Of a stretch of DNA of 28,895 nucleotides, positions 1 through 28,895 are shown in pieces (position 1 is the first letter of the stretch; each line of letters opens with the position of its first letter). A model generated the notes under the pieces. It did no database searches. It was not told the origin of the DNA and saw only the letters and a program-made list of their open reading frames with translations. The stretch comes from a virus. The translations under genes and the position numbers were made by a program. The DNA lies in the IMG/VR virus record IMGVR_UViG_3300047200_000163, positions 1-28,895 of that record; one strand, given 5' to 3'.

Positions 1-1626
1 CTTGCCAAATCAGCAACAGATGACTTTGGGAAGTTTGTTGCTGAGAAACCGGGGCTGTTTTCCAAACTGGAAAGTGTTGTCAATGAGGCGAATTTTAGTA
101 AGATGGATGCAGCACAGTTGAGAAGTATGCTTGGGAATAAACAAGTATCTCCGGTGGAGATTGAGAATACGTTGGGAGGACTGAGGGGAACTGTTACTAA
201 GCCACAGGTAATGGAGGAGGTTGCGGGGAAAGGGATTAAGTTGGAGGATGTTGTTCTGAAGGAACAAAAACCTTTTTCTATGCAAGAGGAAAATCGTTTG
301 TTTGAGTTGTCTAACCAACAACGTGAGTTTAATACTGCGGAAATGCAGGAGTATGATAGGTTATACGGATTAGCAAATACTGCAGAGAATATGAAACCTA
401 AGTTCTCCTCATACCAAGAACCCGGAGCTGTGGAGGGGAGTTATAGAGAGATGTTTGTGACGGCTCCAAGTAAAGTAGCCAGCGAGTTTCATGATAAAGC
501 AATTAAGGGACTTAACGAACTTATGGAGTATCGTAAGTATAATGATTTAACTGCATATGAAGACAAAATAAAGAAGATAATGATTGCCGAGGAACATGGT
601 ATTGATCCTGATAAGTTTGATAAGTATATATCAGGAATGATAGATGCAGATGAAGCTGCAGGTATACGTTCTTGGAAAGACGGCCACTCCGCTTATTCAG
701 ACATACAGAATCCTATTGTCAGGATTAGGTATAATGACAGAGAAGTGGATGGAAAGAAGATTCTCTTCGTTGAGGAGATGCAGGGGCCTGCTGGGGATAC
801 GAAGTACGTAATTCCACTGTCTCCTGGAGATAATAGTAAATGGGTTACATCTCCGTTTGATACCAAGGGTGCAGCAGAGACTTATGCCAAGGAACATAAT
901 ATAGACTTATCCAGGATTAGTAAGTCTGTTGAAGGCGAACAAGGCAAAATGCCCCCGCACCTTCAGTCACGAATTTATGACATTGGTGTTAAGCGTGTTC
1001 TTGCTAAGGCAAAGGAAGAGGGGTATGATGGAGTTGCCTGGACAACGGGGGAGATGCAGGCTGAAAGGTATGATTTGAGTAAGCAGGTAGATAGGATTAT
1101 CCACTATAAAACTGGAGAAGATAAGTATCATGTGTTTGTGTACGCAAAAGGTGATACTGCTCTTTCAACTCGTCCACAATTTGGCAAGCAGGAGATTTCA
1201 TTAAAAGAAGTTGAGGATTTTGTAGGTAAGGAAATTGCTCAAAAAATTGCTAAGGGAGAAGGCGAAGCAACAGAGAATGGTATTAAACTAAGTGGACTTG
1301 ACCTCAAGGTCGGCGGGGAAGGCCTGAAGTCTGTCTATGACAAAACACTGCCTGAGAAGTTTAAGAAGTATGGGAAGGGGGAGGTGGGGAAGGTTGGTAT
1401 ATCTACCATTAAAGAAACTATGATTGATACTCCAGGAGGAGTTAATTTAACTTCTAAAGTTGAAGATGTCCCCGTCCACTATATCCCAATCAAGAAGGAA
1501 ACTCCTTCTCGTTACCCTATTTATAGTGCCCTTCCCCCACTTCTAGCTGCTGGATTGGGGGCGGAGCAGTATCAGTTGGGCAGGGAAGATGTTAAGGGGA
1601 ATAGAACAGCTAGGATGAGATGGTAA
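1..1626 (+). CDS. C-terminal part of a large phage polyvalent-type protein (5' end outside window)
   Basis: The reading frame is open from base 1, so the first visible ATG (103) is probably internal and the gene starts before the window; 541 residues are seen. The middle (about nt 760-1100) has VEEMQ, then a helical stretch ending in GYDGVAWTTGEMQAERYDLS. The end has YDKTLPEKFKKYGK followed by a VHYIPI strand. I recognise this order (EEIQ-type strand, WTTGEQQAERYDLS, FYDKxLPxxxxKYGKK) from the C-terminal domain of very large phage and mobile-element polyvalent proteins, which are thought to be injected with the DNA. Family assignment is from memory of the motif; the biochemical role is unknown. 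It lies just before the HNH gene (7-nt overlap) and the portal. No frameshift is seen in the visible part. Confidence 0.75.
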   Translation, partial: LAKSATDDFGKFVAEKPGLFSKLESVVNEANFSKMDAAQLRSMLGNKQVSPVEIENTLGGLRGTVTKPQVMEEVAGKGIKLEDVVLKEQKPFSMQEENRLFELSNQQREFNTAEMQEYDRLYGLANTAENMKPKFSSYQEPGAVEGSYREMFVTAPSKVASEFHDKAIKGLNELMEYRKYNDLTAYEDKIKKIMIAEEHGIDPDKFDKYISGMIDADEAAGIRSWKDGHSAYSDIQNPIVRIRYNDREVDGKKILFVEEMQGPAGDTKYVIPLSPGDNSKWVTSPFDTKGAAETYAKEHNIDLSRISKSVEGEQGKMPPHLQSRIYDIGVKRVLAKAKEEGYDGVAWTTGEMQAERYDLSKQVDRIIHYKTGEDKYHVFVYAKGDTALSTRPQFGKQEISLKEVEDFVGKEIAQKIAKGEGEATENGIKLSGLDLKVGGEGLKSVYDKTLPEKFKKYGKGEVGKVGISTIKETMIDTPGGVNLTSKVEDVPVHYIPIKKETPSRYPIYSALPPLLAAGLGAEQYQLGREDVKGNRTARMRW

Positions 1627-6322: not shown

Positions 6323-6733
6323 ATGGCTACTGATTTTTATACCAACGCTTTTGCTGATAACTTTAGGCTTGCCAAATCGAGGATTATTGTGAGTCCCGCG
6401 ACAGCAACCTTTAATGTTATCAGGGTTCCCAAGTATGCCTTTGTGTCTGATGTGTGGCTTCAAGTTGTTATTGCTACGAATGTGGAGCCTGATAATTGTT
6501 CTGTGGGTTGGAGTGGTAATGCAGATACGGCAGTTACTAATGGGTTTATTACTATAGAGACAGCTGACCCCCGAACCACAGGACTTAAAAGGGCGCAGAA
6601 GGATACTCTGACGACTTTTCAGGGTAAGTATTTTAGTGGTGGTAGTGGCGTGATTACATTCACTTTTGATGATGGTGCTGCTACTACTTTGGGTTCTTAT
6701 ATTGTGTTTGCACAGTACACCGTTGTTCATTAA
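6323..6733 (+). CDS. Probable virion protein, beta-rich (head decoration candidate)
   Basis: 136 residues with GGGAGG before the ATG. It is rich in alternating hydrophobic residues with Ser, Thr and Gly, and has a segment FNVIRVPKYAFVSDVWLQV that resembles small beta-sandwich head or tail proteins found next to N4-gp56-type coats. There are no catalytic motifs, no signal peptide and no cysteine apart from one. Its position directly after the coat suggests an abundant virion component such as a decoration protein. This function is an inference from place and composition only. Confidence 0.75.
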   Translation: MATDFYTNAFADNFRLAKSRIIVSPATATFNVIRVPKYAFVSDVWLQVVIATNVEPDNCSVGWSGNADTAVTNGFITIETADPRTTGLKRAQKDTLTTFQGKYFSGGSGVITFTFDDGAATTLGSYIVFAQYTVVH

Positions 6734-6745
6734 GGAGGAGTTAAA

Positions 6746-7273
6746 ATGGCTACAGCAACTATTGCGGATTATAGAAGGACTGATCAAAGATGTAATGCGC
6801 TGGAAAATCCTTTCTGGATTACGTCAGCGATTGTGGATGGTGCGGCAGTTTCGGGCCTCAAGGATAAGGCTTGTATTTTGTTCAGTTTTCCTGTGGCGGG
6901 TCAGAAGATTATCATTCATGACTTTGCACTGGAAATTATTACTGGATTTACTGCTGCGACAGTTATGGAAGTGGGGAGTTATACACTTGCTACCAGTGAC
7001 GCTATGACGACAGGGGAGTTGGCAACCTTGGTTGAGGCGGACGAATATCTTGCTCATGGGGATATTACAGCGACAGCAGCAGCTTGGTATTATGCAGATA
7101 GTGGTAGTCACTTTTTGACTGCCAAAGCTGCAGGTACGCATGTTGCAACGGCTAATCTTATTACTGGTGCTGCAACAGTGGTGCCTTGTATTGCAATTAC
7201 CCCGACCATTGCAACTATCATTATTGGGCAGGCTCAGTTGCACGTGTTGATTTCTATTGTCCCCGGAACCTAG
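6746..7273 (+). CDS. Tandem virion paralogue 1 of 3
   Basis: 175 residues; GGAGGAG lies just before the ATG. It shares with the next two genes an N-terminal DYRRTD block (residues 8-13), PFWITS (about 22-27), FSFPVAGQ (46-53) followed by a strand of Ile, and a closing segment with IIIGQAQLHVLISIVPG. No enzyme motif is visible. Beta-rich content and the place after the coat suggest a capsid or tail decoration protein. All three copies are intact, with their own ribosome sites, so this is a diverged gene family and not a broken duplication. Confidence 0.78.
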   Translation: MATATIADYRRTDQRCNALENPFWITSAIVDGAAVSGLKDKACILFSFPVAGQKIIIHDFALEIITGFTAATVMEVGSYTLATSDAMTTGELATLVEADEYLAHGDITATAAAWYYADSGSHFLTAKAAGTHVATANLITGAATVVPCIAITPTIATIIIGQAQLHVLISIVPGT

Positions 7274-7282
7274 GAGGATGAA

Positions 7283-7801
7283 ATGAGTGTTACCATTCAG
7301 GATTATAGACGAACAGATCTTCGAATGGATGTGAGTGGAGACCCTTTCTGGATTGTCTCAAAGGTCGTTGATGGCCATGAGGTATCTGGGTTAAAGGGTA
7401 AAGCTTGTGTTTTATTCTCCTTTCCCGTGGCGGGTCAGCAAATTATCATTCGTGAGGTTGTGGTTAAGATTACAAGGGCTTTTACAGTAGGTACGACCTT
7501 GGAACTTGGAACCTATACTCTTGCGACTGATAGTGTGGAGACTGGGGGTGTGGCGACTGCAGAGCATGATGATGCTTATATTGAAGTGGCAGATATTACC
7601 CCCACCATAGTTGGCTATTATTACCCCACTACGGGAGACTTTGCGGATGCTCGAGGGTCTGGAGTGACTGTTGGTGGAAGTAACTTGATTGTGGGGGCAA
7701 GTACTAGTGTCCCTGCAGTTGTGTTGACTCCTAAGATCTCAACAATAATCATCGGACAGGCACAAGTTTTAATGCTTGTCTGTATTGTGCCTGGGTCATA
7801 G
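7283..7801 (+). CDS. Tandem virion paralogue 2 of 3
   Basis: 172 residues, separated from paralogue 1 by nine bases that hold a GGAGG site. It is the closest relative of paralogue 1: DYRRTD at residues 7-12, PFWIVS at 21-26, VSGLKGKAC and FSFPVAGQ at 45-52, and the end IIIGQAQVLMLVCIVPGS. The central region differs most. Role unknown; inferred virion component. Confidence 0.78.
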   Translation: MSVTIQDYRRTDLRMDVSGDPFWIVSKVVDGHEVSGLKGKACVLFSFPVAGQQIIIREVVVKITRAFTVGTTLELGTYTLATDSVETGGVATAEHDDAYIEVADITPTIVGYYYPTTGDFADARGSGVTVGGSNLIVGASTSVPAVVLTPKISTIIIGQAQVLMLVCIVPGS

Positions 7802-7810
7802 GAGGTTAAA

Positions 7811-8332
7811 ATGGCAGTTGACGTTATCAGAGATTTAAGGGCGGGTTCACGAAGAACAAATATTGTTGGGGCTCCGTTCTGGATTACCAGTGATACTATG
7901 GATGCTGCAGGGACTACTATTGATGATAAGGCTGTTATCATCTTTAGTTTTCCTGTGGCGGGGCAGCAGATTATTCTCATGCAGTTTGTTACAGAAGTAC
8001 TGACCAATTTTACGGCTGGTTCATCAGCAACTATTGGTTATTACTCTTTGGCTACAGATGATGTTACTGTAGGTGGTGTAGCAACTCTTGTCGATGTTGA
8101 TAAGGTTGAGGCATCAGGAGCAACCTATACAACTGCTGCGATTTACTATAGTGCAACTGGGGATGCTCTTGCTAAGAAGATACTTGGAATTCCAACAGCA
8201 GCCAATGATTTAATTATAGGCGCAGCTACAACTGTTCCAGCCATTTGTGCTACGTTTGGAAATGCTGGAACTATTTCTGGTGGAAAGTGTAGATACCACG
8301 CACTGATTGCCGTAGTGCCTGGAACATATTAA
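7811..8332 (+). CDS. Tandem virion paralogue 3 of 3
   Basis: 173 residues, nine bases after paralogue 2, again with GGAGG. It keeps PFWITS (22-27), FSFPVAGQ (45-52) and an ending with YHALIAVVPGTY, but the DYRRTD block is weaker (DLRAGSRR) and the remainder is clearly more diverged. It is therefore the outlying member of the set. The three could form a heteromeric or layered decoration; this is inference. Confidence 0.78.
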   Translation: MAVDVIRDLRAGSRRTNIVGAPFWITSDTMDAAGTTIDDKAVIIFSFPVAGQQIILMQFVTEVLTNFTAGSSATIGYYSLATDDVTVGGVATLVDVDKVEASGATYTTAAIYYSATGDALAKKILGIPTAANDLIIGAATTVPAICATFGNAGTISGGKCRYHALIAVVPGTY

Positions 8333-9634: not shown

Positions 9635-10538
9635 ACAGAGAAGGTTGTTACTTAAGACCAGTGGCTTGAATAATGCTCAACCCCCGACAAGGTTGGAGTA
9701 TGATTCCAATACTGGGGTTATTGAGCTTGCTGAGGCTTATAACGTAGAGATTGATGATACTGGAAGGCCTTGTAGAAGAGGTGGTTATACTGCTACGGTA
9801 AGGACTGAAAGTAGTCATTCTATGTTTACTGGCAGAACAGGAACTTTCTTTGTTGCTGGTACGATTCTTTATAGGTTGAATGAGGACCTTACAAGGACCT
9901 CTGTTCGGACTGGGTTAACTACTGCTGCTAAGGTAAGTTATGTAGAAGTTCTGAATACTATCTACTATATGAATGGATATGAAAAAGGAAGACTTGTTAA
10001 TGGGGTTTATAGTAATTGGGACGTGGGTACTTATCAAGGTCCAGTTACCATTAGACAATTCTCAGCCCCTCCAATAGGAACATTGTTGGAAGCATATAAT
10101 GGAACTATGTTTGTTGTAGTGAAGAATATTCTTTGGTTTTCTGAAAGATTCGGGTTTAACCTTTTTGATATGGCCAGAGGGTATGTCTGGTTTGAAGATG
10201 ATATAACAATGGTTAAGGCTGTTGCGGATGGGCTATATGTTTCTACTGGTAGAAAGGTAGTATTTTTGAAGGGGCAAATTCCAAGTGATTTTCAGCAAAT
10301 AAATGTTTCTAGTTACAGTGCTATTAAAGGTACTGGAATAAGAATTAACGCAGAGGATATGTTGAAAGGACAGGTAGTAGGAACGGCTGTTCTTTGGACA
10401 GCCTCTAATGGGATTCACTTGGGATTGGCGGGTGGGGAGTGTAAGAACCTTACGGAGGACAGGATTGAACTTCCTTATGTTACTGAGGGTTGTGCTGTTC
10501 TTCATAATGGTAAGTATGTTGTAGTAATGAAAAAATAG
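9612..10538 (+). CDS. Tail hub / stabilisation protein, beta-propeller type
   Basis: 308 residues from GTG 9612, with TAGGAGGA about nine bases upstream inside the adaptor gene. The N-terminal NVEIDDTGRPCRRGGYT block and repeated short blades (TFFVAGTILYRLNEDL, TIYYMNGYEKGRLVNG, TMFVVVKNILWFSERF, ADGLYVSTGRKVVFLKG, LWTASNGIHLGLAGG) look like a beta-propeller tail hub of the P22 gp10/N4 kind. It is shorter than gp10 (472). It would bind below the adaptor and seal the tail. Alternative names in related phages are tail tube or tail-hub protein; I cannot separate these. Confidence 0.65.
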   Translation: MAVSGVLKQRRLLLKTSGLNNAQPPTRLEYDSNTGVIELAEAYNVEIDDTGRPCRRGGYTATVRTESSHSMFTGRTGTFFVAGTILYRLNEDLTRTSVRTGLTTAAKVSYVEVLNTIYYMNGYEKGRLVNGVYSNWDVGTYQGPVTIRQFSAPPIGTLLEAYNGTMFVVVKNILWFSERFGFNLFDMARGYVWFEDDITMVKAVADGLYVSTGRKVVFLKGQIPSDFQQINVSSYSAIKGTGIRINAEDMLKGQVVGTAVLWTASNGIHLGLAGGECKNLTEDRIELPYVTEGCAVLHNGKYVVVMKK

Positions 10539-18224: not shown

Positions 18225-21200
18225 ATGCCTATCAAAATATACGAAGACTTCATGAAGCCCGATCCTATGATGCAGCATTTTGTGCAGCAAAGGATGGCTG
18301 AGCAGGAAAGGATTAGTAATGAGAGAAGAAACTTTCTCTCTGACCCCCTCAATGTGGAAAGGATTGTTTCCCACTTTCATCATCAAGCCCTTCCAGAAGA
18401 CAAGGCAGCAAAGATTGCTACGGGTTCTTCGTTGGAAAAGATTGAGAAGGGTATTCCTAAAGGTGATCCAAGGAAGGGAATGGGAGCAAGGACTGTTGCG
18501 GAAGCTCAGCAGGCAATACTAGCTTCCCCCGGAAGACATCCTGTTGAGGTTGTGGCTGAAGCGTATAATAAGAACCTTGGAGGATTAGTAGACAAGGGAC
18601 TTTATAACTATATTCGTGAGCAGAATTCTAGTCTTATTGGGGGTAAGGTTGCCACAGCTCCTGGGTACGAAAAGTGGAAACAACTTCCTGAACAGGCTGA
18701 AAACAAGTGGGAATATACTAATCCTCTTTTGTCAGCAGGAATAGGAGCAGCATTTTCTTTGGCTGGAGCAGGGATTGGAAGTATGTTAGCCCCCGGTCCT
18801 GGGACTGTGGCGGGCGGACTTGCTGGTAGAGTTGCTGCAACCGCTGTTGGTGGTTGGCTTGGAAGAACACTTGCTGTTAAGGCAGGTCAAACTGTACTCG
18901 GGCAAGCAGGTAAAGCAGGTCTTGTTGCAATTCCATCCTTTGCAATCTTTGATACTGCTCATAATGTTTTAGGTGAAACTGACTGGGGCAAGTCAAGACC
19001 AATAAGTAGACTGCTTGTTGCTGGTGTTGGTGGCGGTGCTGCTGATTATGCTATGATGAGAGGTCTTAGTGTAGCTACTAAACCAGTTGTGGATGCATTT
19101 AAAGACTTTAATATGATGGGGGATGTTCTTGCTAAGGAACCAAGTATTGGTAATATATTAAAGTACGATAAAGCAAGAGCTGGTGTAGGTGAAGAAGCTC
19201 GGAATGTAATGAAGGATAGGATGTCCTATAAGACTGGAGCAACAGAGGAGGCTAGTGAGTATTATAAGAACAACATTCCTCTTGGGGAGGGGATTGCTAG
19301 ACCACGTCTTGATGCTTTAGAAAAGGAGACTTATCTTAGTAGCATACTCAAAGGAGAAACTCATGAGGGGGCGTTAAAGACTGCTACCGAAGCAAGTAGA
19401 ATGGCTGTTGCTAAAAGTATTTCTGAAGCTGCTATTAAAGATGAGATGAATTTTAAGAGTCTTTTAGCAGAAAGGTCAGCACTTCATCCTGAAATAGATC
19501 CTATTCAACATAGTATCAATATTAGAAATGAGCAGGAGTTTATAAATAACGTGCTTGGTAGTGGAGGAGGAAAGGTAAGTACCTCAGAATTTCCTTCTAT
19601 TATAAAGAATAAAAAGAAGATAAACCAATTAAAACTTGATGAAGCAACCAAAGCCACAACAGAGGAATACGAAAGGCAAATAGGGGATATAGTTCCGGGT
19701 GTGAAGAGTCTTGATGATCTTAAAATGGCATCTGAACTTAGAAATCTTAGTAGAAGAGATTCTGTTATTGCTCTTGGTAAAATTCAGCAGGCTAAAAATA
19801 CAGGACTTATGACTGAAGAGGAAGCAAGATTGTGGTCTGCTCCTATTGAGAAGGTTATAAGGAGAGATCACAGAGATCTACTTGGTCTTGGAGTAGAGGA
19901 AAATGTGTTTGACCTTAGTGGCAAGGCTGTTGATACAGCCAAGGGACACGAACTTGCTATGTCATCTCTCACGAAGGCCTTAGAACACTCTGACCCCGCC
20001 AAAGCAATAGACATTTGGGATAATACTATTAGCCACGTTCTTTCTAATAGTGTTAGTTCAAAGTCAAAGGATGAGTTTCTGTCAAAGCTTAGTGTATTTA
20101 CTTCGACAGATGCTCATAAGAACATGATGGAAAAAGCAAAAGGATTGTTTACTGATAATTTAAGTAATATGATTTATGGAGTAGGAGCAGTTGCTAGTGC
20201 AACGGGATTGATTTCCCTTATGACTCCGTCTTCTGCTGAGGCATTTAATGTAGAGCCTTTTGTTAAGGCAGCAAAGAAATTAACAGGAGCAGAAATGGAA
20301 TTAGCTGTTAGTAAACTTATGACATCTCCTGTTGTTTCTGCAGATGGCCAGACGTTTCTACAAGGAGCAGCTAGCCTGAGTATGAAACCAAAGACTGAAT
20401 ATATTATAAGAAAGGAAGGGATAGGTCCTATACTATCAAGGATAGCTAGTCCGGGCCTTAACGAACAGTTCTTATTTAGAGCAGGTACTGGTCCTCGAGC
20501 TATATTGGCCTCTCATACAAGAGCAGCAGCAGCTGATACTACTGATATGCTTGGGGTTGCAAGTCGAAATCTTTCTGTTATACCTGAGGAGACAAACATA
20601 ATTCGTGAGTATATGAAACCAATGCTAAAATATGATCCTATGTTGGCTGAGTTTAATGGGATTACTGCACAACATGATGTTCTGGATCAGATTTTAAGTG
20701 GTAAATATAAAGTCGCAGCGGATATAGAACAAGCTGGCCTGAGTAAAAGAATCAAGACAGGTAATCTTGATGAAGCAGATATGGAAGCAGTTAGATATTT
20801 TAATAACCTGAAGTCTGGTCTTGAAGAGGATCTTAAAAGGTTTGAGGAACCTGTAAAGGCATACAAGAATGAGTACAAAGAACGAGCACAATACCTTGTA
20901 GAAAATCACTCTTCATCAAGAGTTTTCTTTGGCGCAGAGGGAGAAAAGATGCGGGGGTTTGCTGCAACAGATCCTTGGTTTGGTGAGTTTAATGAGAAAG
21001 TTATGAATTCACTTAGTCACGATGAAAAACTAGCAGCTGCGAGACTTAAGGAACTTATGCAGTTCCAAGCAAAAAGGGCAGAGGAGGCGGGGCTTAAAAC
21101 TATATCAAAGGAAGGGTATATGCCCCATGCCTTCCACCCTGATTCAGATTTGGCAAATCTTGACAAAATAGCAAAGGATGTTATGTTCTCTAAGGGCGCG

Positions 21201-22520
21201 GGGATTGATATGGCTAAGTTTCATTCTCGTTCTTTTGACTCCCTGCCTATGATGCCTGATGCCCATTTTGCTATGGCTAAGTATATCCCTGATTCAAATC
21301 TTAGAATTCAAATGTCTTCTTTCTGGAAGGAGTGGGGGCCGTTTGCTAAAGAGGCAGAATACAAAGGATACACTGGAGTTGCTGAGCATCTTAAGACTAT
21401 ACAAAAAGCATTCTCTCCTGTTGATGGGTTTGGAGGATGGGAAAAATGGGCAAGTAGAATACAAGCATTTGAAGCAGCAAGGTTGATCTCACTTAGCCCT
21501 GCAGTTGGTTTTAAGCACAGTATGAAACTTATGGCGAGTTTGTCTTTTGGAGGTACTTCAACCATTAAAAGTTTGCCTGGTGCTATTAAGATGTCCTATG
21601 ATTTACAGTTAAATAATCTTCTTAGAACCGCCCCGCAAAATATTAGGGCTGCATTGGCCAAGTCATTTATCGGGGGCAAAGACATGTTTGCTATGGCTAA
21701 TGATATTGTACCTGTTCAAAAGGATTTAAGTTGGTTTGATGCGGGCATAAAGAAGTGGAATGATAATACTAACTTCATTGTAAATAATGTAGAGATTTTG
21801 GATAGAGGTGTATCTGTATTATCTTCTTTAAATATGGCAGCAAAGAGAGGAATGACACCTGAGCAAGCAGCGTATCTTGTGCATGATACTATAGTAAGGG
21901 CTAACTTTCTTAGTGGTATACACAATCCTAGTTGGTTGAGGGACCCAAAAACCAGACTCCTTTTCTTGTTTCAAGGTACTCCATTTAAGATATGGGAGCA
22001 GCGTTTGTATACTGCTATTAGAGGAGGGCAAGCAATATCTGATGGGACAAAGAAGGTATATCAGCAACTTATCAGTGATATTAAAACTGGTGAGCGTAAT
22101 ATGAAGTATGGGCTTATTAAGGATGCTTTTACTGCAGCAAGAGATGTTAATGGAAATTCATACTCAGGGGAAATGATGAGAATGCTTTTAACACTTGGGG
22201 CTGTTGCCTATGGGGGGAAGCAGGTATTGGATGTTAGTTTTATGGACCAAATTCTACACCCCCCGTTTATTAAGGTTAAAGAACAATCAGCAGGTCTTGC
22301 TACAAATCCTATAATGGGTGCGGCTTATGGAACGTTAATGAGTAAGGATGATGAAACTAGTAACTTTATACAGTTTATGAAAAAGTGGCTTCCGCAAGGT
22401 CCGATTCCTGCAGCTGTGGTTAAGGCACATAGACTAAGTAAAAATGATATACCTGAAATATATAAGGACAGTAAAGTTCAATACTTCTTTGGTGTGCCTT
22501 CGTGGCACAGAGAGGATTGA
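18225..22520 (+). CDS. Giant internal virion / DNA-ejection protein
   Basis: 1431 residues, the largest gene in the window. Residues about 166-250 form a long Gly/Ala-rich, weakly hydrophobic stretch (AGIGAAFSLAGAGIGSML, then AATAVGGWLGRT) that could insert in membranes. Another hydrophobic segment lies near 648-667 (IYGVGAVASATGLISLM) and a third near 1320-1335 (MLLTLGAVAYGG). The rest is mostly charged helix. The C-terminal region with LVHDTIVRANFLSGIHNPSWL and FLFQGTPFKIWEQR resembles the C-terminal domain (LPD38-like) of large polyvalent/ejection proteins; this is a weak resemblance. I see no lytic transglycosylase motif. It ends ten bases before element R4. Confidence 0.72.
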   Translation: MPIKIYEDFMKPDPMMQHFVQQRMAEQERISNERRNFLSDPLNVERIVSHFHHQALPEDKAAKIATGSSLEKIEKGIPKGDPRKGMGARTVAEAQQAILASPGRHPVEVVAEAYNKNLGGLVDKGLYNYIREQNSSLIGGKVATAPGYEKWKQLPEQAENKWEYTNPLLSAGIGAAFSLAGAGIGSMLAPGPGTVAGGLAGRVAATAVGGWLGRTLAVKAGQTVLGQAGKAGLVAIPSFAIFDTAHNVLGETDWGKSRPISRLLVAGVGGGAADYAMMRGLSVATKPVVDAFKDFNMMGDVLAKEPSIGNILKYDKARAGVGEEARNVMKDRMSYKTGATEEASEYYKNNIPLGEGIARPRLDALEKETYLSSILKGETHEGALKTATEASRMAVAKSISEAAIKDEMNFKSLLAERSALHPEIDPIQHSINIRNEQEFINNVLGSGGGKVSTSEFPSIIKNKKKINQLKLDEATKATTEEYERQIGDIVPGVKSLDDLKMASELRNLSRRDSVIALGKIQQAKNTGLMTEEEARLWSAPIEKVIRRDHRDLLGLGVEENVFDLSGKAVDTAKGHELAMSSLTKALEHSDPAKAIDIWDNTISHVLSNSVSSKSKDEFLSKLSVFTSTDAHKNMMEKAKGLFTDNLSNMIYGVGAVASATGLISLMTPSSAEAFNVEPFVKAAKKLTGAEMELAVSKLMTSPVVSADGQTFLQGAASLSMKPKTEYIIRKEGIGPILSRIASPGLNEQFLFRAGTGPRAILASHTRAAAADTTDMLGVASRNLSVIPEETNIIREYMKPMLKYDPMLAEFNGITAQHDVLDQILSGKYKVAADIEQAGLSKRIKTGNLDEADMEAVRYFNNLKSGLEEDLKRFEEPVKAYKNEYKERAQYLVENHSSSRVFFGAEGEKMRGFAATDPWFGEFNEKVMNSLSHDEKLAAARLKELMQFQAKRAEEAGLKTISKEGYMPHAFHPDSDLANLDKIAKDVMFSKGAGIDMAKFHSRSFDSLPMMPDAHFAMAKYIPDSNLRIQMSSFWKEWGPFAKEAEYKGYTGVAEHLKTIQKAFSPVDGFGGWEKWASRIQAFEAARLISLSPAVGFKHSMKLMASLSFGGTSTIKSLPGAIKMSYDLQLNNLLRTAPQNIRAALAKSFIGGKDMFAMANDIVPVQKDLSWFDAGIKKWNDNTNFIVNNVEILDRGVSVLSSLNMAAKRGMTPEQAAYLVHDTIVRANFLSGIHNPSWLRDPKTRLLFLFQGTPFKIWEQRLYTAIRGGQAISDGTKKVYQQLISDIKTGERNMKYGLIKDAFTAARDVNGNSYSGEMMRMLLTLGAVAYGGKQVLDVSFMDQILHPPFIKVKEQSAGLATNPIMGAAYGTLMSKDDETSNFIQFMKKWLPQGPIPAAVVKAHRLSKNDIPEIYKDSKVQYFFGVPSWHRED

Positions 22521-22530
22521 CCCAGACAAA

Positions 22531-22575
22531 ATGTCATATTTTGACATATCTCGAAAAGAGTTTATAGTATTATGA
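22531..22575 (+). other. Fourteen-codon ORF formed by element R4, coupled to the fibre gene
   Basis: ATG at 22531, the first base before the R4 palindrome, opens MSYFDISRKEFIVL and closes with TGA at 22573-22575. That stop overlaps the ATG of the next gene (22572) as ATGA. The next gene has only a weak ribosome site, so the mini-ORF could feed ribosomes to it. No clear site precedes the mini-ORF itself. Whether it is translated is not shown by the sequence. Confidence 0.35.
22532..22553 (+). repeat. Dispersed palindromic element, copy R4
   Basis: TGTCA-TATTT-TGACA followed by TATCTCG. It occupies most of the 51-base gap between the giant ejection gene and the fibre gene. Same orientation as R1 and R5. 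Its plus-strand frame reads (M)SYFDIS; the minus strand also offers ATG TCA, which runs for 37 antisense codons. Confidence 0.9.
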
Positions 22576-23792
22576 GATACGTAAGTGAAGGTAGAGTAAA
22601 GGATATTTTAGGTCTGTCTACAGAGGATAAGCCGCACCTTACTGGCACTGGCCATACCTTCTTAGAGGTTGATACAGGATTAAAAGCTGTATGGGACGGT
22701 GAAAGGTGGGTTGAGGATGTATCTGCAATTTATGCTCAATCTAAAGGTCTCGAGAACTACTTTGAATCTCTTAGAGGAATAGGACTACTTGATGAAAAAG
22801 GAAATCCTTATGGTGTAAAGCAAATAAATGGTAAGCCCCGTGTTTCTACTATACCTTATCTTCATGACATTTCTTCCTTACATATTAGTGGTAAGTCTAT
22901 TTGGTCGAAGGTAGGATATAATGGAGATGTAGATGGTGGTACTGAGGATATTTGGGCTGTAGGTGGGTTGTATGTATGGCCTACAGCAGAGATGCAGATG
23001 GAGGTTTATTCTGACTCTGAACGGGATCAGCAGCAGGCTATAACTGCATTTGCTACGTCTGATGGAGGGACAAAAACAAAGGTCACTGTTACAGCTAATC
23101 ATGGACTGACCAACGGGGATAAGGTAACTATTTCAGGGTGTGCAACTGCGGCCTATAATACAGTTCATATTATTGAGCAAGTGAATACAAACTTCTTTGT
23201 TATCCCTGTGGCATATGTTGTAACAGCGGCGGCAGGTATAGCAAGGGGACCGGGAGTTAATGTCGTCACTATTTTCTATCTCAATGCGGCGGGAGTAGAG
23301 AAAACTGAAGATGTGACTATAGGACCTAAAGTGGCAGTTGCCACAGTAGCAACAGATATTTACAGGATAAACGCTTTTAGATCAAAGACTGTGGGTAATA
23401 CGGGTAAGGCAGTAGGAAATATTGACTTAAGGAATCTGGCTGATACTCCTATATATGCTAGGATTGCTCCGGGATATACAAGGTCAAGGAATTCAGCCTA
23501 CACTGTTCCGTTTGGGAAAACGCTGTTTATAACAGGGGCAACCTTTTCGTCTGTGGGTATTGCAACAGGTAAGGATGTTATCTTTACATTGAGAACAACT
23601 TATGATGATATAAATAATTCTATGAGGACGTTTTTCGTTCCCTTAATAGAGATAGGATTGATGGATGGAGCTGTTCATATTCCGTTTGATATACCTCTTA
23701 GACTTCCTGCTGGAGTAGATATGATTGTTACAGGTCTTGCGGGGAGTGATAATGCTAAATGTTCATCAATTCTTAGGGGATGGTTAGAATGA
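22572..23792 (+). CDS. Tail fibre / appendage protein with N-terminal attachment module
   Basis: 406 residues. Residues 12-49 (ILGLSTEDKPHLTG... TFLEVDTGLKAVWDGERWVED) form a module that reappears as a stand-alone 65-residue gene at 23967, with 22 of 38 positions identical and no gap. The middle (about 150-240) has an extra beta region (VTVTANHGLTNGDKVTISG) typical of virion beta-sandwich domains, and the end (about 300-405) is a further beta domain. The role as fibre or appendage is inferred from modular beta structure and place after the ejection genes. The start at 22572 overlaps the R4 mini-ORF; its own ribosome site is weak. Confidence 0.6.
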   Translation: MRYVSEGRVKDILGLSTEDKPHLTGTGHTFLEVDTGLKAVWDGERWVEDVSAIYAQSKGLENYFESLRGIGLLDEKGNPYGVKQINGKPRVSTIPYLHDISSLHISGKSIWSKVGYNGDVDGGTEDIWAVGGLYVWPTAEMQMEVYSDSERDQQQAITAFATSDGGTKTKVTVTANHGLTNGDKVTISGCATAAYNTVHIIEQVNTNFFVIPVAYVVTAAAGIARGPGVNVVTIFYLNAAGVEKTEDVTIGPKVAVATVATDIYRINAFRSKTVGNTGKAVGNIDLRNLADTPIYARIAPGYTRSRNSAYTVPFGKTLFITGATFSSVGIATGKDVIFTLRTTYDDINNSMRTFFVPLIEIGLMDGAVHIPFDIPLRLPAGVDMIVTGLAGSDNAKCSSILRGWLE

Positions 23793-23941
23793 AACTCTGT
23801 AAAATAGGAATTCATAAGTGGGGTAGTCCTAAGCAGTGGATTGACAGTAATGGCAATGTTGTCTTTACACCACGTTGTAAGGATTGCCACAAACTAAAGG
23901 AGGTGGCAGGCGTCAATAAAGAAACTAAGAAGCTAATGTAG
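23789..23941 (+). CDS. Zinc-finger microprotein (50 residues)
   Basis: ATG at 23789 overlaps the fibre gene stop as ATGA, and the frame runs to TAG at 23939-23941. The product has C4, H9, and a CKDCH cluster with C30, C33 and H34, enough ligands for one zinc ion, plus a basic helix at the C-terminus. The coupled start, metal-ligand pattern and exact fit in the 174-base gap between neighbours support a real gene. Role unknown; nucleic-acid binding is possible. Confidence 0.6.
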   Translation: MKLCKIGIHKWGSPKQWIDSNGNVVFTPRCKDCHKLKEVAGVNKETKKLM

Positions 23942-23966
23942 CACCTAAATCGTAAGGGGGTCTGAG

Positions 23967-24164
23967 ATGGCAGTTAAACTGATTACAGATGTGAGAAAAT
24001 TTATAGGGTTATCTACAGATACTAAACCATATTTGACTGGTATAGGTGGGAAGTTTACTGAGATTGATACCGGAGCAAAGTTCCTTTGGAATGGTGAGCA
24101 GTGGGTAGACGACTTAACTTTAACCTACGCCTTTTTAGAGGCACTAAAGATACATGGGAGGTAA
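23967..24164 (+). CDS. Stand-alone copy of the fibre N-terminal module
   Basis: 65 residues with AAGGGGG before the ATG. Residues 12-49 (FIGLSTDTKPYLTG to WVDD) align without gaps to the first 49 residues of the 406-residue fibre gene. After that the two differ, and this protein stops 16 residues later. It could be a small adaptor or chaperone that uses the same binding surface, or the stump of a fibre gene whose distal part was lost or replaced. The intact start and stop and good ribosome site favour an expressed gene. Confidence 0.65.
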   Translation: MAVKLITDVRKFIGLSTDTKPYLTGIGGKFTEIDTGAKFLWNGEQWVDDLTLTYAFLEALKIHGR

Positions 24165-24170
24165 GAAAAA

Positions 24171-24821
24171 ATGAATGATCTTAAGATAGGACCTGGTGGA
24201 GGAGCAGATGCTCAGTTTGTCCCCCCGAGGGCAAGTAGAAATGGCTCGCATATTGTAGCTGATGGACAGGGAAAGTATTATGAACAAACAGTCAGAGGGA
24301 ATGTTTTCTCAATGGTTCTGACTGCCTGGTCTACTACTATATCAGCAGGTAATACACTTGCAGCAGCCGCAGCAGCAGTGTCACAGTTTGCGCTATGGAA
24401 TCCTACAGGAAGTGGGAAGAATATTGCTCTTCTGAAGTTTGCAACCTGGCCGATTTCAGGAACATGGGGTATTTCTGGTTTATGGCACAGTTATATGTCT
24501 GTTAATCCTACTATTGCAAGTACATCTTTGACTCCTGTTACTTGTAATAATATAGGTCTGGCAGCAGCAACTATTGCGGGGTATCACTCTTCAGCAGCAG
24601 GAACTGCGTTGACTGGTTGTTCAGCACTGAAAGTTATCAGGGCAGCTAATTTGTATATTAGTGCTGGTACGCTTTCAGCTTTGGCTGGTGTTGCTTATGT
24701 TGACCTTTGTGACGGGGATATAGTTATTCCTCCGGGTTTTGGCTGGGCTCCGACATGGGCACACGCAGGTACGACCACACTTGGTGGTTATTCTGTGACT
24801 TGGGAAGAGAATACGATCTAA
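24171..24821 (+). CDS. Virion protein, paralogue of the gene at 8347
   Basis: 216 residues, seven bases after the stand-alone module gene. It shares the ALWNPTGSGKNIALL block (residues 75-89) and the GYSVTWEENTI ending with the 197-residue gene next to the coat cluster. The middle is Ala/Ser/Thr-rich and beta-like. No catalytic motif is visible. A duplicate of a head-side protein within the fibre region suggests re-use of one beta fold for a different virion position; this is inference. Confidence 0.7.
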   Translation: MNDLKIGPGGGADAQFVPPRASRNGSHIVADGQGKYYEQTVRGNVFSMVLTAWSTTISAGNTLAAAAAAVSQFALWNPTGSGKNIALLKFATWPISGTWGISGLWHSYMSVNPTIASTSLTPVTCNNIGLAAATIAGYHSSAAGTALTGCSALKVIRAANLYISAGTLSALAGVAYVDLCDGDIVIPPGFGWAPTWAHAGTTTLGGYSVTWEENTI

Positions 24822-24827
24822 CTTTAC

Positions 24828-24862
24828 TGAAGGACCTGCTCTGTAAAGGGCAGGTTACTTCA
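24828..24862 (+). repeat. Strong RNA stem-loop in the 60-base gap
   Basis: Inner stem ACCTGCTCT (24834-24842) with AGGGCAGGT (24847-24855), nine pairs with one G-U, closed by a GTAA (GNRA-type) loop. Outer stem TGAAG (24828-24832) with CTTCA (24858-24862), five pairs, separated by a 1x2 internal loop. There is no T-run after it, so it does not look like a standard intrinsic terminator. It may be an mRNA-stability or processing element before the gene at 24882. Confidence 0.7.
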
Positions 24863-24881
24863 TTACATAAGGAGAACTAAA

Positions 24882-25316
24882 ATGGCTGGAACTATTATAG
24901 CTACTACAAGGGGGATCAAGAAAGTAGGTTCTCCTTATAAGTACGATATGATTGAGGTGAGATTGCTTTGTACTTGTGAAGCAGCAGCGGCTACGTTTAC
25001 GTCTGTGGTTTTGAATACTCTTTCTGGAGTAGTTGGTTATGATCTTGTTGGGTATAAACTGTATAGTGTCAAAGCTTTCCCTGGCTCGACTGGCCCGACA
25101 GATGCAACGGATTTGACTATTACAGATGTTGATGGAGTTGATCTTCTTGGGGCAAGAGGAACGAACTTGATTATGGAAGCTACTAAGACTTCATGCTGTG
25201 CGGGGTCAGCTAGCAGCGAGATGCCTATGCCCATTACAGGTCCAATTACAATTAACATCTCTAACAATGCAGTCAATGCAGCTGTTATAAATCTTAAACT
25301 TTTATTTACAGTTTAA
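24882..25316 (+). CDS. Small virion protein, unknown function
   Basis: 144 residues with AAGGAG before the ATG. The central block YKLYSVKAFPGSTGPTDATDLTI followed by GVDLLGARGTNLI is like a set of small phage structural proteins I have seen near fibre genes, but I have no firm family name. It has a CTC pair and a CC pair, and ends in beta strands (PITINISNNAVNAAVINLKLLF). Likely a beta-sandwich virion component. Confidence 0.65.
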   Translation: MAGTIIATTRGIKKVGSPYKYDMIEVRLLCTCEAAAATFTSVVLNTLSGVVGYDLVGYKLYSVKAFPGSTGPTDATDLTITDVDGVDLLGARGTNLIMEATKTSCCAGSASSEMPMPITGPITINISNNAVNAAVINLKLLFTV

Positions 25317-25327
25317 GGAGTATTCAA

Positions 25328-26083
25328 ATGAGCTATTATACACAAGAATACTATGAGCAAGGTGGGGTTACAACTAAGTACAGAGGCACCATCACCGGAC
25401 TCCGCATAAGTGCTGTTGACGGAACGGCGTTTGTGGACGGCGCAAACGCTTCCGTAACTGCTTTGGCAGACGGCAACCATGAAATTTCTATATACGACTC
25501 CTCCGGCAGGGCTTTGAAGGGGGTGCTGAAGGCGGCGGGGTCAGGAGGTGGAACTCTGAGTGCGGAGAAGATTTTGGGTTGGACTAATCATATTTCTCTT
25601 GGTTACAACACTTTCACGAAAAACGCAGATACGAGAATTATAGATTCCGCCATTGAAAATCCCGCTGATACTGCCCTTGCTTACTGGGATCACTCTACAA
25701 CCATGCCGGATAAGGCTCTCTTTTGTTTCACAGCATCCCTTACATTAAATGATGGGAAAACTGACTGTCCAAAGTTTAGAACTGGCGATGATGGAGGAGC
25801 TGATAATGGTGTTTTTACAGTAGCAATGGCAACTACACTGGCATCTGGAGCAAACACATATTACAGGACAAGTAACGGTCATGATTTAATGATGACTATA
25901 TGGACTTTAGGTGATGCCTCTTTCAGCCTGAATCCCTCATACAAACAGATACTTGCCCCCTCCTCAAGTGGCTGCACGGTGGTATCCGCTAAGGGTGGCG
26001 TTACCTATAACTTCACTTCAAAGGATGCCTCGTTTGCTTATAATAAAGCGAGCTATGACGTGGTGGTGAGGAGATTGAGATGA
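25328..26083 (+). CDS. Candidate receptor-binding or fibre-tip protein
   Basis: 251 residues with AAGGAG before the ATG. An N-terminal Tyr-rich start (MSYYTQEYYEQGG) and a beta domain to about residue 68 lead into a GSGGG linker (residues about 71-75), then a second beta domain to the end (FTASLTLNDGKTDCPKF, YNFTSKDASFAYNKASYDVVVRR). The Gly linker marks a domain boundary. Base composition rises in G+C from about 25380. Modular build and place at the end of the structural genes suggest host recognition; no enzyme motif is seen. Confidence 0.55.
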   Translation: MSYYTQEYYEQGGVTTKYRGTITGLRISAVDGTAFVDGANASVTALADGNHEISIYDSSGRALKGVLKAAGSGGGTLSAEKILGWTNHISLGYNTFTKNADTRIIDSAIENPADTALAYWDHSTTMPDKALFCFTASLTLNDGKTDCPKFRTGDDGGADNGVFTVAMATTLASGANTYYRTSNGHDLMMTIWTLGDASFSLNPSYKQILAPSSSGCTVVSAKGGVTYNFTSKDASFAYNKASYDVVVRRLR

Positions 26084-26448
26084 ATAAACTCGGAGACTTA
26101 TTCAACAAGTATCAGGACGCCTTCATAGACGCAACGGAGTCCTCGGACAAGATCATCGACATACTTGTGCCTGTCAGGATTCGCCTATACGGGCGGCAGC
26201 AGGACAAGATAGCCGCATGGAACGCAGAGCATCCAGATAATCAGGACAATATGTTTTTCATGTCAGTCTCAACCAATCCTGTCGAGTTGTGGGGAGACTT
26301 GAGGGAAGCTGACGGAAAGCCCGTTGTAAATCATTTCGCGCTTGGCCATGAACTCGGTCATGCTATGCGGGTAGCGATGAGTGGGTGGACACTTCGGTCA
26401 GAGAATGACGGGGAGATGTTAAGCCCGGATAAATACATAGAAATTTAG
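26080..26448 (+). CDS. HELGH-motif protein, putative zinc metallopeptidase
   Basis: 122 residues, coupled to the previous gene by ATGA. Residues 86-95 read FALGHELGHA, with H90, E91 and H94 in a textbook HExxH motif inside a helix; a third metal ligand could be E108 or E112 but is not certain. No signal peptide or membrane segment is visible. Phage proteins with HExxH include virion proteases and ImmA-type peptidases, but this short protein matches none clearly. The G+C-richer coding sequence differs from the earlier genes. A structural role with a chance motif cannot be ruled out. Confidence 0.6.
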   Translation: MNKLGDLFNKYQDAFIDATESSDKIIDILVPVRIRLYGRQQDKIAAWNAEHPDNQDNMFFMSVSTNPVELWGDLREADGKPVVNHFALGHELGHAMRVAMSGWTLRSENDGEMLSPDKYIEI

Positions 26449-26461
26449 GAGGAATCAAACC

Positions 26462-26848
26462 ATGATGGTAGAAGGGCAGAAGAAGCACTTATCAGCGGTC
26501 ACGTTTCAAGGGGTAGTTTATAACATCTACCTAATGTGCCAGATGCAGGGGCCACAGGTTTATATCCTTGTTCTCTGTAAGGGTGACTGGCAGGTTGCAA
26601 GTCCTGAGACTCTGGAGACTTGCCTTCTTGACGATTCCAGTGGACAGTATAGTAGTCAGGAGAAATGGCCCGATCCCTTTAACTATGTCACATGGGCCTG
26701 TGGGATTCTCCAGACAGAGTGGGCGAAGGTCGAGGGCGGGACAACTCCACCTCCGGTAACTACATGGACTGAGAGGTTGGAAGCATATCTCTTTCGCGTG
26801 GCTTTCTTTCTTCAAGCGGATGGCAAGCATGTCATCAAAATAATCTAA
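26462..26848 (+). CDS. Hypothetical protein in the accessory region
   Basis: 128 residues. Two adjacent ATGs (26462, 26465) follow an AGGAGGAA site. I do not recognise it. The N-terminal 50 residues look like beta strands (VTFQGVVYNIYLMCQMQ, VYILVLCKGDW), followed by a Trp-rich part and a TTPPPVTTW hinge. The final 25 residues could be an amphipathic helix. Short gaps to both neighbours suggest one transcript with the HELGH gene. Confidence 0.6.
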   Translation: MMVEGQKKHLSAVTFQGVVYNIYLMCQMQGPQVYILVLCKGDWQVASPETLETCLLDDSSGQYSSQEKWPDPFNYVTWACGILQTEWAKVEGGTTPPPVTTWTERLEAYLFRVAFFLQADGKHVIKII

Positions 26849-26858
26849 GGAGGGTATA

Positions 26859-27290
26859 ATGACACAAATCGAACAAGCAAAGATCAAGCAGGCAATCGGG
26901 ATTCTTCAGTCACTTCTGGTGGACGAGCAGGCGGAATACACTTTTGTTGGCACATTCGCTGGGGCAATGCTTCGGGATCAGGCGGGTAAACTGCACAAGG
27001 CGGTCAGGGACGGTGACAAGTGGGCACTTGCCCCTCCAGAACCTGACCCTGAGCCAGATAAGCCGAAGCCGGAAGTTGTCTGGCCTGAAGTGGACTACAG
27101 CAATCCTCGTTACACAATCGGGACGTGCAAGACCTGCGTGTCCTACTACTCAGACCTGTTCAAGTTCGGCTTCCCCGGATTCGTGGCAGAGATCAGGAAG
27201 TTCTGGGGACAGCAGGAAGGCTTCTACCAGCCGATTAAAGACTTCATCAGAGACTACCCGGAGCTGTTCCCGAAGTGTGAGACCTGTTAG
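26859..27290 (+). CDS. Hypothetical protein with Pro-rich linker and CxxC pairs
   Basis: 143 residues with AAGGAGGG before the ATG. The N-terminal domain is helical (KIKQAIGILQSLLVDEQ), then comes a PEPDPEPDKPKPE linker at residues 61-73, then a C-terminal domain with CKTC and a final CETC, which may bind zinc together. No known family recognised. It lies between the accessory genes and the lysis cassette. Confidence 0.62.
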   Translation: MTQIEQAKIKQAIGILQSLLVDEQAEYTFVGTFAGAMLRDQAGKLHKAVRDGDKWALAPPEPDPEPDKPKPEVVWPEVDYSNPRYTIGTCKTCVSYYSDLFKFGFPGFVAEIRKFWGQQEGFYQPIKDFIRDYPELFPKCETC

Positions 27291-27326
27291 GAGTTGCGCC
27301 AATTCAGTTGTGAAGGAGATGGGCGG

Positions 27327-27725
27327 ATGCCAGATCATTATGACGAAAGGCTCTGTAACTCAAAGCACGAAGGATTAATGAAAATCGTTGCCTTAAGTGC
27401 AGATAAGTTGAAGACCCGATTAGACGGGATGGACATAGCCTTATCATTGAAGACACAGGATATGGATCGTCGACTGGAAGGTCTGAACCATCTGCGTGCT
27501 GAATACACCAGAGACAGGATGGAGGATCGGGCGCAGTACGTCAAGACGGAGACATACGAAATCAAGACGAAAGGCTACGACGAGTGGACAAGGATCGTGG
27601 ACAACAGGCTGATGAAGATGGAAACGCAGTATGCCAGCAGGATCAGCTTTGCGACTACATTGTCTGTGTTCTCCGCTATTATAGCCTTGCTCGGAGTGGT
27701 TATTCCGTGGCTGCTTCATAAATAG
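27327..27725 (+). CDS. Coiled-coil protein with C-terminal membrane anchor (XhlA-like, lysis accessory)
   Basis: 132 residues from ATG 27327, which has AAGGAG eight bases upstream; an earlier in-frame TTG at 27294 would add 11 residues without a site. A long charged coiled coil (residues about 14-105) precedes one hydrophobic helix near 108-128 (FATTLSVFSAIIALLGVVIPWL) and a short basic end. This is the topology of XhlA-type hemolysin/holin accessory proteins. Being directly before an endolysin and a holin supports a lysis role. The family call is by topology only. Confidence 0.65.
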   Translation: MPDHYDERLCNSKHEGLMKIVALSADKLKTRLDGMDIALSLKTQDMDRRLEGLNHLRAEYTRDRMEDRAQYVKTETYEIKTKGYDEWTRIVDNRLMKMETQYASRISFATTLSVFSAIIALLGVVIPWLLHK

Positions 27726-27739
27726 GGAGGGGGGAGAAG

Positions 27740-28096
27740 GTGAAATACTTTAAGATCGAGGAGTTTGCCTGTAAAGGTAAGGATTGCTGTAATGGCTCCC
27801 GCCTTGTGGACCCAACCTTTCTCGAAATGCTCGACAACGCAAGGGGGATTTCCGGTGTGCCTTACATTATCCGTTCAGGGTATCGTTGTTTTAGCCATAA
27901 CAAGGCTATTGGTTCAACAAGCACGAATCATATTAGGGGTCTGGCAGCAGATATTGAAACCTTGGATGGCCCGACCAGAGGCAAGGTCCTCCGGGGACTC
28001 TACCTTGCAGGATTTCGTAGGGTTGGAATTTCCTTCGCGAAAGGATTTGTCCACGCAGATATAAATGATGGGCCGGAAAGTTGTTTTGAGGAGTAA
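27740..28096 (+). CDS. Endolysin, peptidase M15 (D,D- or L,D-carboxy/endopeptidase type)
   Basis: 118 residues from GTG 27740 with GGGGGGAG before it. The zinc site pattern of M15A is present: SGYRC, then S-T-N-H64-I-R-G-L-A-A-D71, and G-F-V-H105-A-D107. These enzymes cleave the peptide stems of peptidoglycan. There is no signal peptide, so export depends on the holin. The start carries a short KIEEFACKG region usual for this family. CxxxxCC near residues 11-17 is an extra Cys cluster that may be structural. Coupled tightly with the holin gene (six bases apart). Confidence 0.9.
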   Translation: MKYFKIEEFACKGKDCCNGSRLVDPTFLEMLDNARGISGVPYIIRSGYRCFSHNKAIGSTSTNHIRGLAADIETLDGPTRGKVLRGLYLAGFRRVGISFAKGFVHADINDGPESCFEE

Positions 28097-28101
28097 AGAC
28101 T

Positions 28102-28527
28102 ATGGGAATCGCTGATATTAACATTGACGGAAGCCTTATCAAGGGAGCGTTTGAAGGGGTCAACTCTTTCATCCAGACTATTCGAAGCGTGATAACAGGC
28201 AAGCTACCGCCAGACCAAGAGGCGGCCTTGTTGCAAAGGGCACTTGAAATCGAGGCTACGCTGAACAATGCACAAGCAGAGATTAACAAGATTGAAGCGG
28301 GTAGTTCATCACTATTTGTTGCAGGATGGAGGCCTTTTATCGGCTGGACTTGCGGTGTTGCTCTGGCTTATAATTATGTACTTATGCCATTCATAGTGTG
28401 GTTCGTGATGAACTTCTATCCAGATGCTCCTGGTATGCCAGTTTTGGATAATAGTGAGTTGATGACTATCCTATTAGGCATGTTAGGTTTGGGTGCCATG
28501 AGGACGTATGAGAAGGTTAAGAAGTAA
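28102..28527 (+). CDS. Holin of the 3TM family
   Basis: 141 residues. An amphipathic N-terminal half (residues 1-68) precedes SSLFVAGWRPFIGWTCGVALAYNY (seen in parts at 69-92), then a second helix to about 104 and a third at 118-134, ending with GAMRTYEKVKK. The FVAGWRPFIGW block is the recognisable start of the Holin_3TMs family. It would permeabilise the inner membrane and release the M15 endolysin. Its 3' end overlaps the convergent minus-strand gene by 11 bases. Confidence 0.88.
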   Translation: MGIADINIDGSLIKGAFEGVNSFIQTIRSVITGKLPPDQEAALLQRALEIEATLNNAQAEINKIEAGSSSLFVAGWRPFIGWTCGVALAYNYVLMPFIVWFVMNFYPDAPGMPVLDNSELMTILLGMLGLGAMRTYEKVKK

Positions 28528-28804
28528 AGACTGTTTCTACACTTTCTACCTGTTCTCTAAATCTAATAGCTAAGCATTCTATACTTTCATACTGAGCGCA
28601 GCAAATAAATCTAAACTGCCCCTCAGTAATCTCAACATACCAAGTATGACTTCCCCCATCCTTGTAACTGACCCCAACCTCATAGACATTATCAAACAGC
28701 TTCTTGGCCCAATTTAAGTTGGCCTCAGAAGGCTCTCCCAATCCTGCCTTAAGCATGGTTTTAAGGTTCAAATTCCGCAATAAGATCGTGTCATTTTTTG
28801 ACAT
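28517..28804 (-). CDS. Minus-strand small protein starting in element R5
   Basis: 95 residues, beginning MSKND, which is encoded by the dispersed element, the same five residues as the gene at 12437. The rest is alpha/beta in character (NLNWAKKLFDNVYEVGVSY, HTWYVEITEGQFRFICCAQYES, CLAIRFREQVES). No family recognised. It is the first gene in the opposite direction and converges with the holin, with both 3' ends overlapping. The upstream ORF stops in the element three bases before its ATG, so coupling is likely. Confidence 0.65.
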   Translation of the reverse strand: MSKNDTILLRNLNLKTMLKAGLGEPSEANLNWAKKLFDNVYEVGVSYKDGGSHTWYVEITEGQFRFICCAQYESIECLAIRFREQVESVETVFTS

Positions 28805-28810
28805 ATCTCA
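28789..28810 (+). repeat. Dispersed palindromic element, copy R5
   Basis: TGTCA-TTTTT-TGACA followed by TATCTCA; identical over 22 bp to copy R3 on the opposite strand. In the direction of the minus-strand genes it supplies TGA (28810-28808) to the upstream ORF and ATG (28804-28802) to the 95-residue gene. Confidence 0.92.
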
Positions 28811-28894
28811 ATCCACCCCAGTCCAAATATACCATATATCTCCGGTCTCATTCTTAGGTCCTCTAAATACTCTCTTAACCTTTCCTGTCCTCAT
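28808..28894 (-). CDS. Short minus-strand ORF at the window edge (possibly partial)
   Basis: Reads MRTGKVKRVFRGPKNETG then DIWYIWTGVD and ends with the TGA of element R5. The ATG is at the last bases of the window, so the gene may start further outside. It is basic at the start and Trp-rich at the end. The codons look protein-like and the stop-GAT-ATG junction matches that at 12431. No function can be assigned. Confidence 0.4.
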   Translation of the reverse strand: MRTGKVKRVFRGPKNETGDIWYIWTGVD

Positions 28895-28895
28895 G

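Follow-up and report, generated by a model that had tools for sequence, protein, structure and literature searches.

The open reading frame (ORF) that carries an HELGH motif beside a probable tail-fibre gene may encode a small, orphan metallopeptidase, zincin-like and of a single domain, as part of a tail-fibre exchange cassette, a reading to which we give a probability of about 0.45. It occupies positions 26080–26448 on the forward strand of the window, by which is meant the whole stretch of 28,895 nucleotides of IMG/VR record IMGVR_UViG_3300047200_000163 that was analysed, and it is inherited in one block with the final 42 or so fibre codons in two unlike phages. The case for a metallopeptidase is built on the motif and on the strength of purifying selection, which make a protease function plausible. 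With one homologue found, the gene is an interesting lead and not a discovery.

The gene (P0001; 122 aa) starts with the ATG at 26080, its stop codon ends at 26448, and its start overlaps by 4 bp (ATGA) the end of the upstream probable fibre gene. One relative of the protein was found, in record IMGVR_UViG_3300037493_005088 (G001), where the copy is 97% identical in amino acid sequence across all 122 residues. Of the 366 nucleotides of the coding sequence, 29 differ between the two copies, 26 of them at third codon positions, with 24 codons changed silently and four changing a residue; dN is 0.0139, dS 0.438 and dN/dS about 0.03, and together these values indicate strong purifying selection on the gene. 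Both other forward frames are interrupted by stops, and the ORF is confirmed as a real gene. The clean HExxH that the sequence-only reading had placed in a 122-residue protein is upheld, the HELGH string lying at residues 90–94 (codons at 26347–26361, forward strand) of a real and conserved product.

If the protein is such an enzyme, zinc would be bound by H90 and H94, with E91 as the likely catalytic base. A third zinc ligand is not identifiable in the protein, in which 28 residues remain after the motif; the nearest acidic residues past it that are common to both copies are E108, D110 and E112 (codons 108–112, 26401–26415, forward strand), which are candidates by position only, and E108 or E112 may perhaps serve. 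The metzincin extension is absent, as R97 occupies the position at which glycine is required in the motif HEXXHXXGXXH/D, as given in an excerpt of PMC8235301. The three residues that the earlier reading had expected homologues to retain, H90, E91 and H94, are all kept in the G001 copy, which is nearly empty as a test because this sole homologue differs at just 4 of 122 residues. The order of elements, judged by eye as helix-strand-helix-strand-strand-motif helix, would fit a minimal zincin. The AlphaFold2 model, made from a two-row alignment, speaks neither for nor against a zincin fold, as its pLDDT is 48 and the motif is not helical.

Minigluzincins are small proteins in which HExxH lies towards the C-terminus. 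The HELGH protein is likewise small, has its HExxH near the C-terminus and holds a glutamate, E112, 18 residues past the second histidine (H94). The family is named in an excerpt of PMC4559962; the likeness to it is one of description and not of a minigluzincin profile, and the HELGH protein differs in that the searches detected no homology and that its third ligand is a candidate.

Of the 87 ORFs in the window that reach 60 aa, the HELGH gene is the only one to encode an HExxH, and the ALGHELGHAM string of its product is the only match among them to PS00142, which we take to be the zinc-protease signature with HExxH in a hydrophobic context. Across 5000 shuffles of a 34-gene set, one or more HExxH motifs appeared in 11.8% of trials and one or more PS00142 matches in 0.7%; when the HELGH protein alone was shuffled, the frequencies were 0.6% and 0.02%, respectively. 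The bare motif is thus not rare, and the full signature is uncommon, yet not impossible in a window that was read for many things.

Other carriers of the extended motif were sought by a DNA-level scan of IMG/VR for [LF]GHE[LF]GHA, which returned 88 stretches. Eighty of these were grouped into the G001 copy and 31 other groups, and the remaining eight resemble, by eye, groups already found and include no relative of the HELGH protein. With one representative per group compared to Pfam at E 0.001, metallopeptidase families are matched by up to five of the 31 groups (M78 twice, M48, M10 and DUF6782, the member of the last being taken as distinct in this count). The motif is also present in non-peptidase proteins, namely a sigma-70 factor, inside region 3, and a terminase, just ahead of the matched domain; one DUF6267 protein and one weak DnaJ match complete the annotated carriers. 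The remaining groups have no Pfam match, and some give the impression of being wrong-strand frames. The viral sigma-70 factor with LGHELGHA in region 3 is seen at L049:3992-4879, and the DUF6267-represented group, which consists of five listed loci, at L016:225-932. Metallopeptidases are therefore the largest annotated class of extended-motif carriers and not the sole one, and the extended motif alone is no proof of a peptidase. Should the HELGH protein turn out not to be a protease, it would serve as a useful warning that a sigma factor and a terminase, too, have the extended signature seen in this phage ORF.

Comparison with known families returned little. The HELGH protein has no family match in Pfam or PHROGs up to E 5, a limit to be read with the HMMER filters in mind, as these discard most matches above about 0.1; NCBIfam, PADLOC and PDB sequences likewise gave no match. 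The earlier statement that it resembles no known short phage peptidase agrees with these five empty searches. Profile comparison with hhalign was made against M78, Zincin_1 and M48 sets of 30 loci each, from which loci were dropped if they lacked an ORF of at least 70 aa with HExxH within 300 nt of the locus centre, leaving 21, 28 and 29 rows, respectively; one M78 row (L134) looks non-homologous and stays in the set. The best of the three is M78, at 81% probability over 17 columns covering the active-site helix. Its score was equalled by 5 of 100 shuffles that kept residues 89–96 and by 6 of 100 that kept residues 87–97, and the resemblance therefore hardly exceeds the motif itself. M48 and Zincin_1 (PF06262) align over 9 and 8 columns, with nothing beyond the motif, and their scores were equalled by 15 and 12, respectively, of 100 shuffles in which the motif was kept.

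In comparing the protein to the ImmA/IrrE-type M78 family (PF06114), F-x-x-x-HELGH is shared at the active-site helix; in contrast, residues 95–122 hold no ExxAxxFA in either its exact or its looser form, which follow the motif in 8 and 16 of the 21 aligned M78 rows, respectively. For M91 (PF14891) no match was obtained in the record, in a search that missed the cut-off in all 14 control genomes as well. The genome of locus L003 has one M91 match below the cut-off, and across 198 genomes of its phylum none was found at E 1e-5, with controls that did not reach the cut-off.

Relatives were sought by peptide-pattern scans of viral contigs and genome contigs, by motif scans and by a fibre-end scan. 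With tblastn, annotated phages and plasmids gave six records and one record, respectively, all at E 6 or worse, and with blastn there was no match to the cassette in phages or to the HELGH gene in E. coli genomes. The portal relatives introduced below (G002, G003 and G004) showed no match to the HELGH protein in records that may be incomplete. Genome locus L003 was considered as a relative and judged a chance match, as the match spans 29 residues of a 1079-aa protein and leaves out the HELGH part. Of 396 genomes from the phylum to which G005 belongs, a two-row profile matched 40 at E 1 or better (best 0.0012); eight loci from these matches were fetched (L103–L110) and six re-scored at E 0.01 or better, of which only L109 has HELGH in register (32 residues), and the best, L103, has no HExxH. 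Among the matches looked at individually, we accept the G001 copy alone as a homologue. No paper on the HELGH protein itself came up in the literature searched.

The neighbouring gene (25328–26083, forward strand; 251 aa) is a probable tail fibre, for which receptor binding would be a probable role. For its product, Pfam gave nothing and PHROGs a single match at E 0.15, and the structure model, with a pLDDT of 30, is useless. The gene has a mosaic homologue in G001, a 485-aa version with a LamG-lectin match at E 5.8e-5, below the Pfam cut-off, which is preceded by two collagen-like fibre genes with a 165-aa ORF between. Parts of the beginning, middle and end of the two fibres are shared and little of the centre, the N-terminal segment being 48 bp at 89.6% (25375–25422, forward strand) and the middle segment 75 bp at 77% (25466–25540, forward strand). 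The sequence-only reading, which is supported in part, had coupled the HELGH gene to a putative receptor-binding gene; the coupling stands by the ATGA overlap and by co-inheritance, whereas receptor binding by the neighbour is no more than probable, given the weak LamG match of its G001 version. In another phage, a 194-aa ORF at locus L203 (motif at 8125-8148) contains VTYNFTSKDAQF, which resembles the fibre-end string VTYNFTSKDASF, in a context that looks unrelated.

With self-matches of the window's own stretch (L002) ignored, a block of 504 bp (25956–26459, forward strand) that takes in all of the HELGH gene together with the end of the fibre gene is 90.5% identical between the window and G001, and the start of the next gene is 98% identical over 57 bp (26858–26914, forward strand). 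In G001 this next gene comes immediately after the HELGH gene; in the window an extra 128-aa ORF lies between the same neighbours (26462–26848, forward strand), for which Pfam, PHROGs and PADLOC gave no match. The HELGH gene is thereby shown to have been inherited in one block with the final 42 or so fibre codons, which lie within the 504 bp. This co-inheritance with the fibre may be mere linkage, because the sharing extends to the beginning of the next gene as well.

The two phages are otherwise unlike. In tblastx matches of at least 30 residues, the cassette is accompanied only by the M15 endolysin (69.8% over 106 residues), the region 9717–10514 (41% and 32%) and short matches at 26–35%. 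The window has a P22-like portal (PF16510; phrog_156) with no match in G001, in a search run with no positive control, and G001 carries its own head-tail adaptor (phrog_332), major head protein (phrog_1357) and terminase (phrog_2). Portal relatives of the window are found in G002 (62% identity), G003 (60%) and G004 (45%). In the first two of these, whose records may be incomplete, positions 22501–28895 of the window are unmatched at E 0.01 except for 29 residues at the start of the fibre gene.

A metallopeptidase made beside the fibre would, with less confidence than is given to the enzyme itself, act on the fibre by trimming or maturing its constant C-terminal end, or else ride on it. No obvious signal peptide is seen by eye in the HELGH protein, and action on the host surface, one of the roles that the sequence-only reading had suggested, would therefore need its incorporation in the particle. 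A more specific proposal, in which a separate zinc metallopeptidase co-inherited with the constant C-terminal end matures the folded fibre in trans, is doubtful and carries low odds. It would differ from the T5 and K1F fibres, whose intramolecular chaperone domains are removed by autoproteolysis according to an excerpt of PMC10579305. Were the protein a fibre-maturation protease, the exchange cassettes of fibre plus helper, which have a bearing on phage host range, would gain an enzyme; the helpers in those described in that excerpt are chaperones, and no HExxH protein at the fibre-helper position came up in the literature searched.

This leads to the main rival, that the protein is a non-catalytic fibre-assembly chaperone or a tip protein in which HELGH is incidental or structural. 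We consider it unlikely, although the position and exchange pattern resemble the fibre-chaperone pairs of Alteromonas phages: in the excerpted text of PMC10579305, the unlike phages A5, V22 and P24 share a tail fibre together with its chaperone, and here too two unlike phages have in common a fibre gene end and the small gene that adjoins it. The exchange of a small gene along with a fibre end is indeed a known arrangement. The Alteromonas chaperones are 176–239 aa long, with DUF4376 in A5 and V22 (same excerpt), whereas the HELGH protein has 122 aa, an HExxH and no DUF4376. Adjacency to the fibre C-terminus and exchange with it, seen in two phages and in a block that extends to the next gene, would suit a chaperone, as would the existence of non-peptidase proteins with the motif. 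Set against this, no chaperone family was matched in Pfam or PHROGs up to E 5, and the full zinc-protease signature is unlikely by chance. The HELGH protein is also far more conserved than the fibre end: the last 42 fibre codons have a dN of 0.098 against 0.014, and at an equal dS (0.434) their ratio is about 0.22 as opposed to about 0.03, as expected of an enzyme and not of a fast-changing tip.

A rather unlikely alternative accepts the metallopeptidase and moves it inside the host, where it would serve in takeover, counter-defence or lysis timing as a passenger in the interval between fibre and lysis genes. In both phages the HELGH gene is situated after the probable fibre gene and ahead of an M15 endolysin, identified by Pfam in the window and by homology in G001, and the gene content of the stretch from fibre to endolysin varies. 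GC3 climbs from 0.29–0.31 in four upstream genes (starts at 18225, 22572, 24171 and 24882) to 0.44 in the fibre gene, 0.59 in the HELGH gene and 0.54–0.66 in the next three genes, before reaching 0.47–0.48 in the endolysin and holin; the raised GC3 suggests an imported stretch. The rise to 0.59 and the strong purifying selection would both be compatible with an intracellular enzyme, while the 4-bp fibre overlap, a shared block that starts inside the fibre gene and the lack of a PADLOC match argue against one. The last rival, that the ORF is not a gene or that it is spurious and has the motif by chance, is very improbable: about 12% of comparably sized gene sets should contain a bare HExxH, but a spurious ORF is ruled out by the third-position pattern, the four residue changes and the stops in the other frames, and the chance-motif half of the argument falls under the chaperone rival.

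Some further features of the two records were seen. The lysis pair of the window lies at 27740–28527 and consists of the M15 endolysin (PF08291, 1.9e-14; phrog_894) and a GTA-type holin (PF11351; phrog_3427), and in G001 a 959-aa ORF with glycosyltransferase matches is located downstream of the endolysin (L009:2176-5055). The first ORF of the window (103–1626; 507 aa) distantly matches a hypothetical Dolichospermum phage protein (E 1e-8) and partially matches phrog_7348, which is annotated as an endolysin. At 6323–8332, four neighbouring ORFs of 136–175 aa have tblastx matches to L006 and L007 that cross over between neighbours, suggesting that they may be tandem paralogues.
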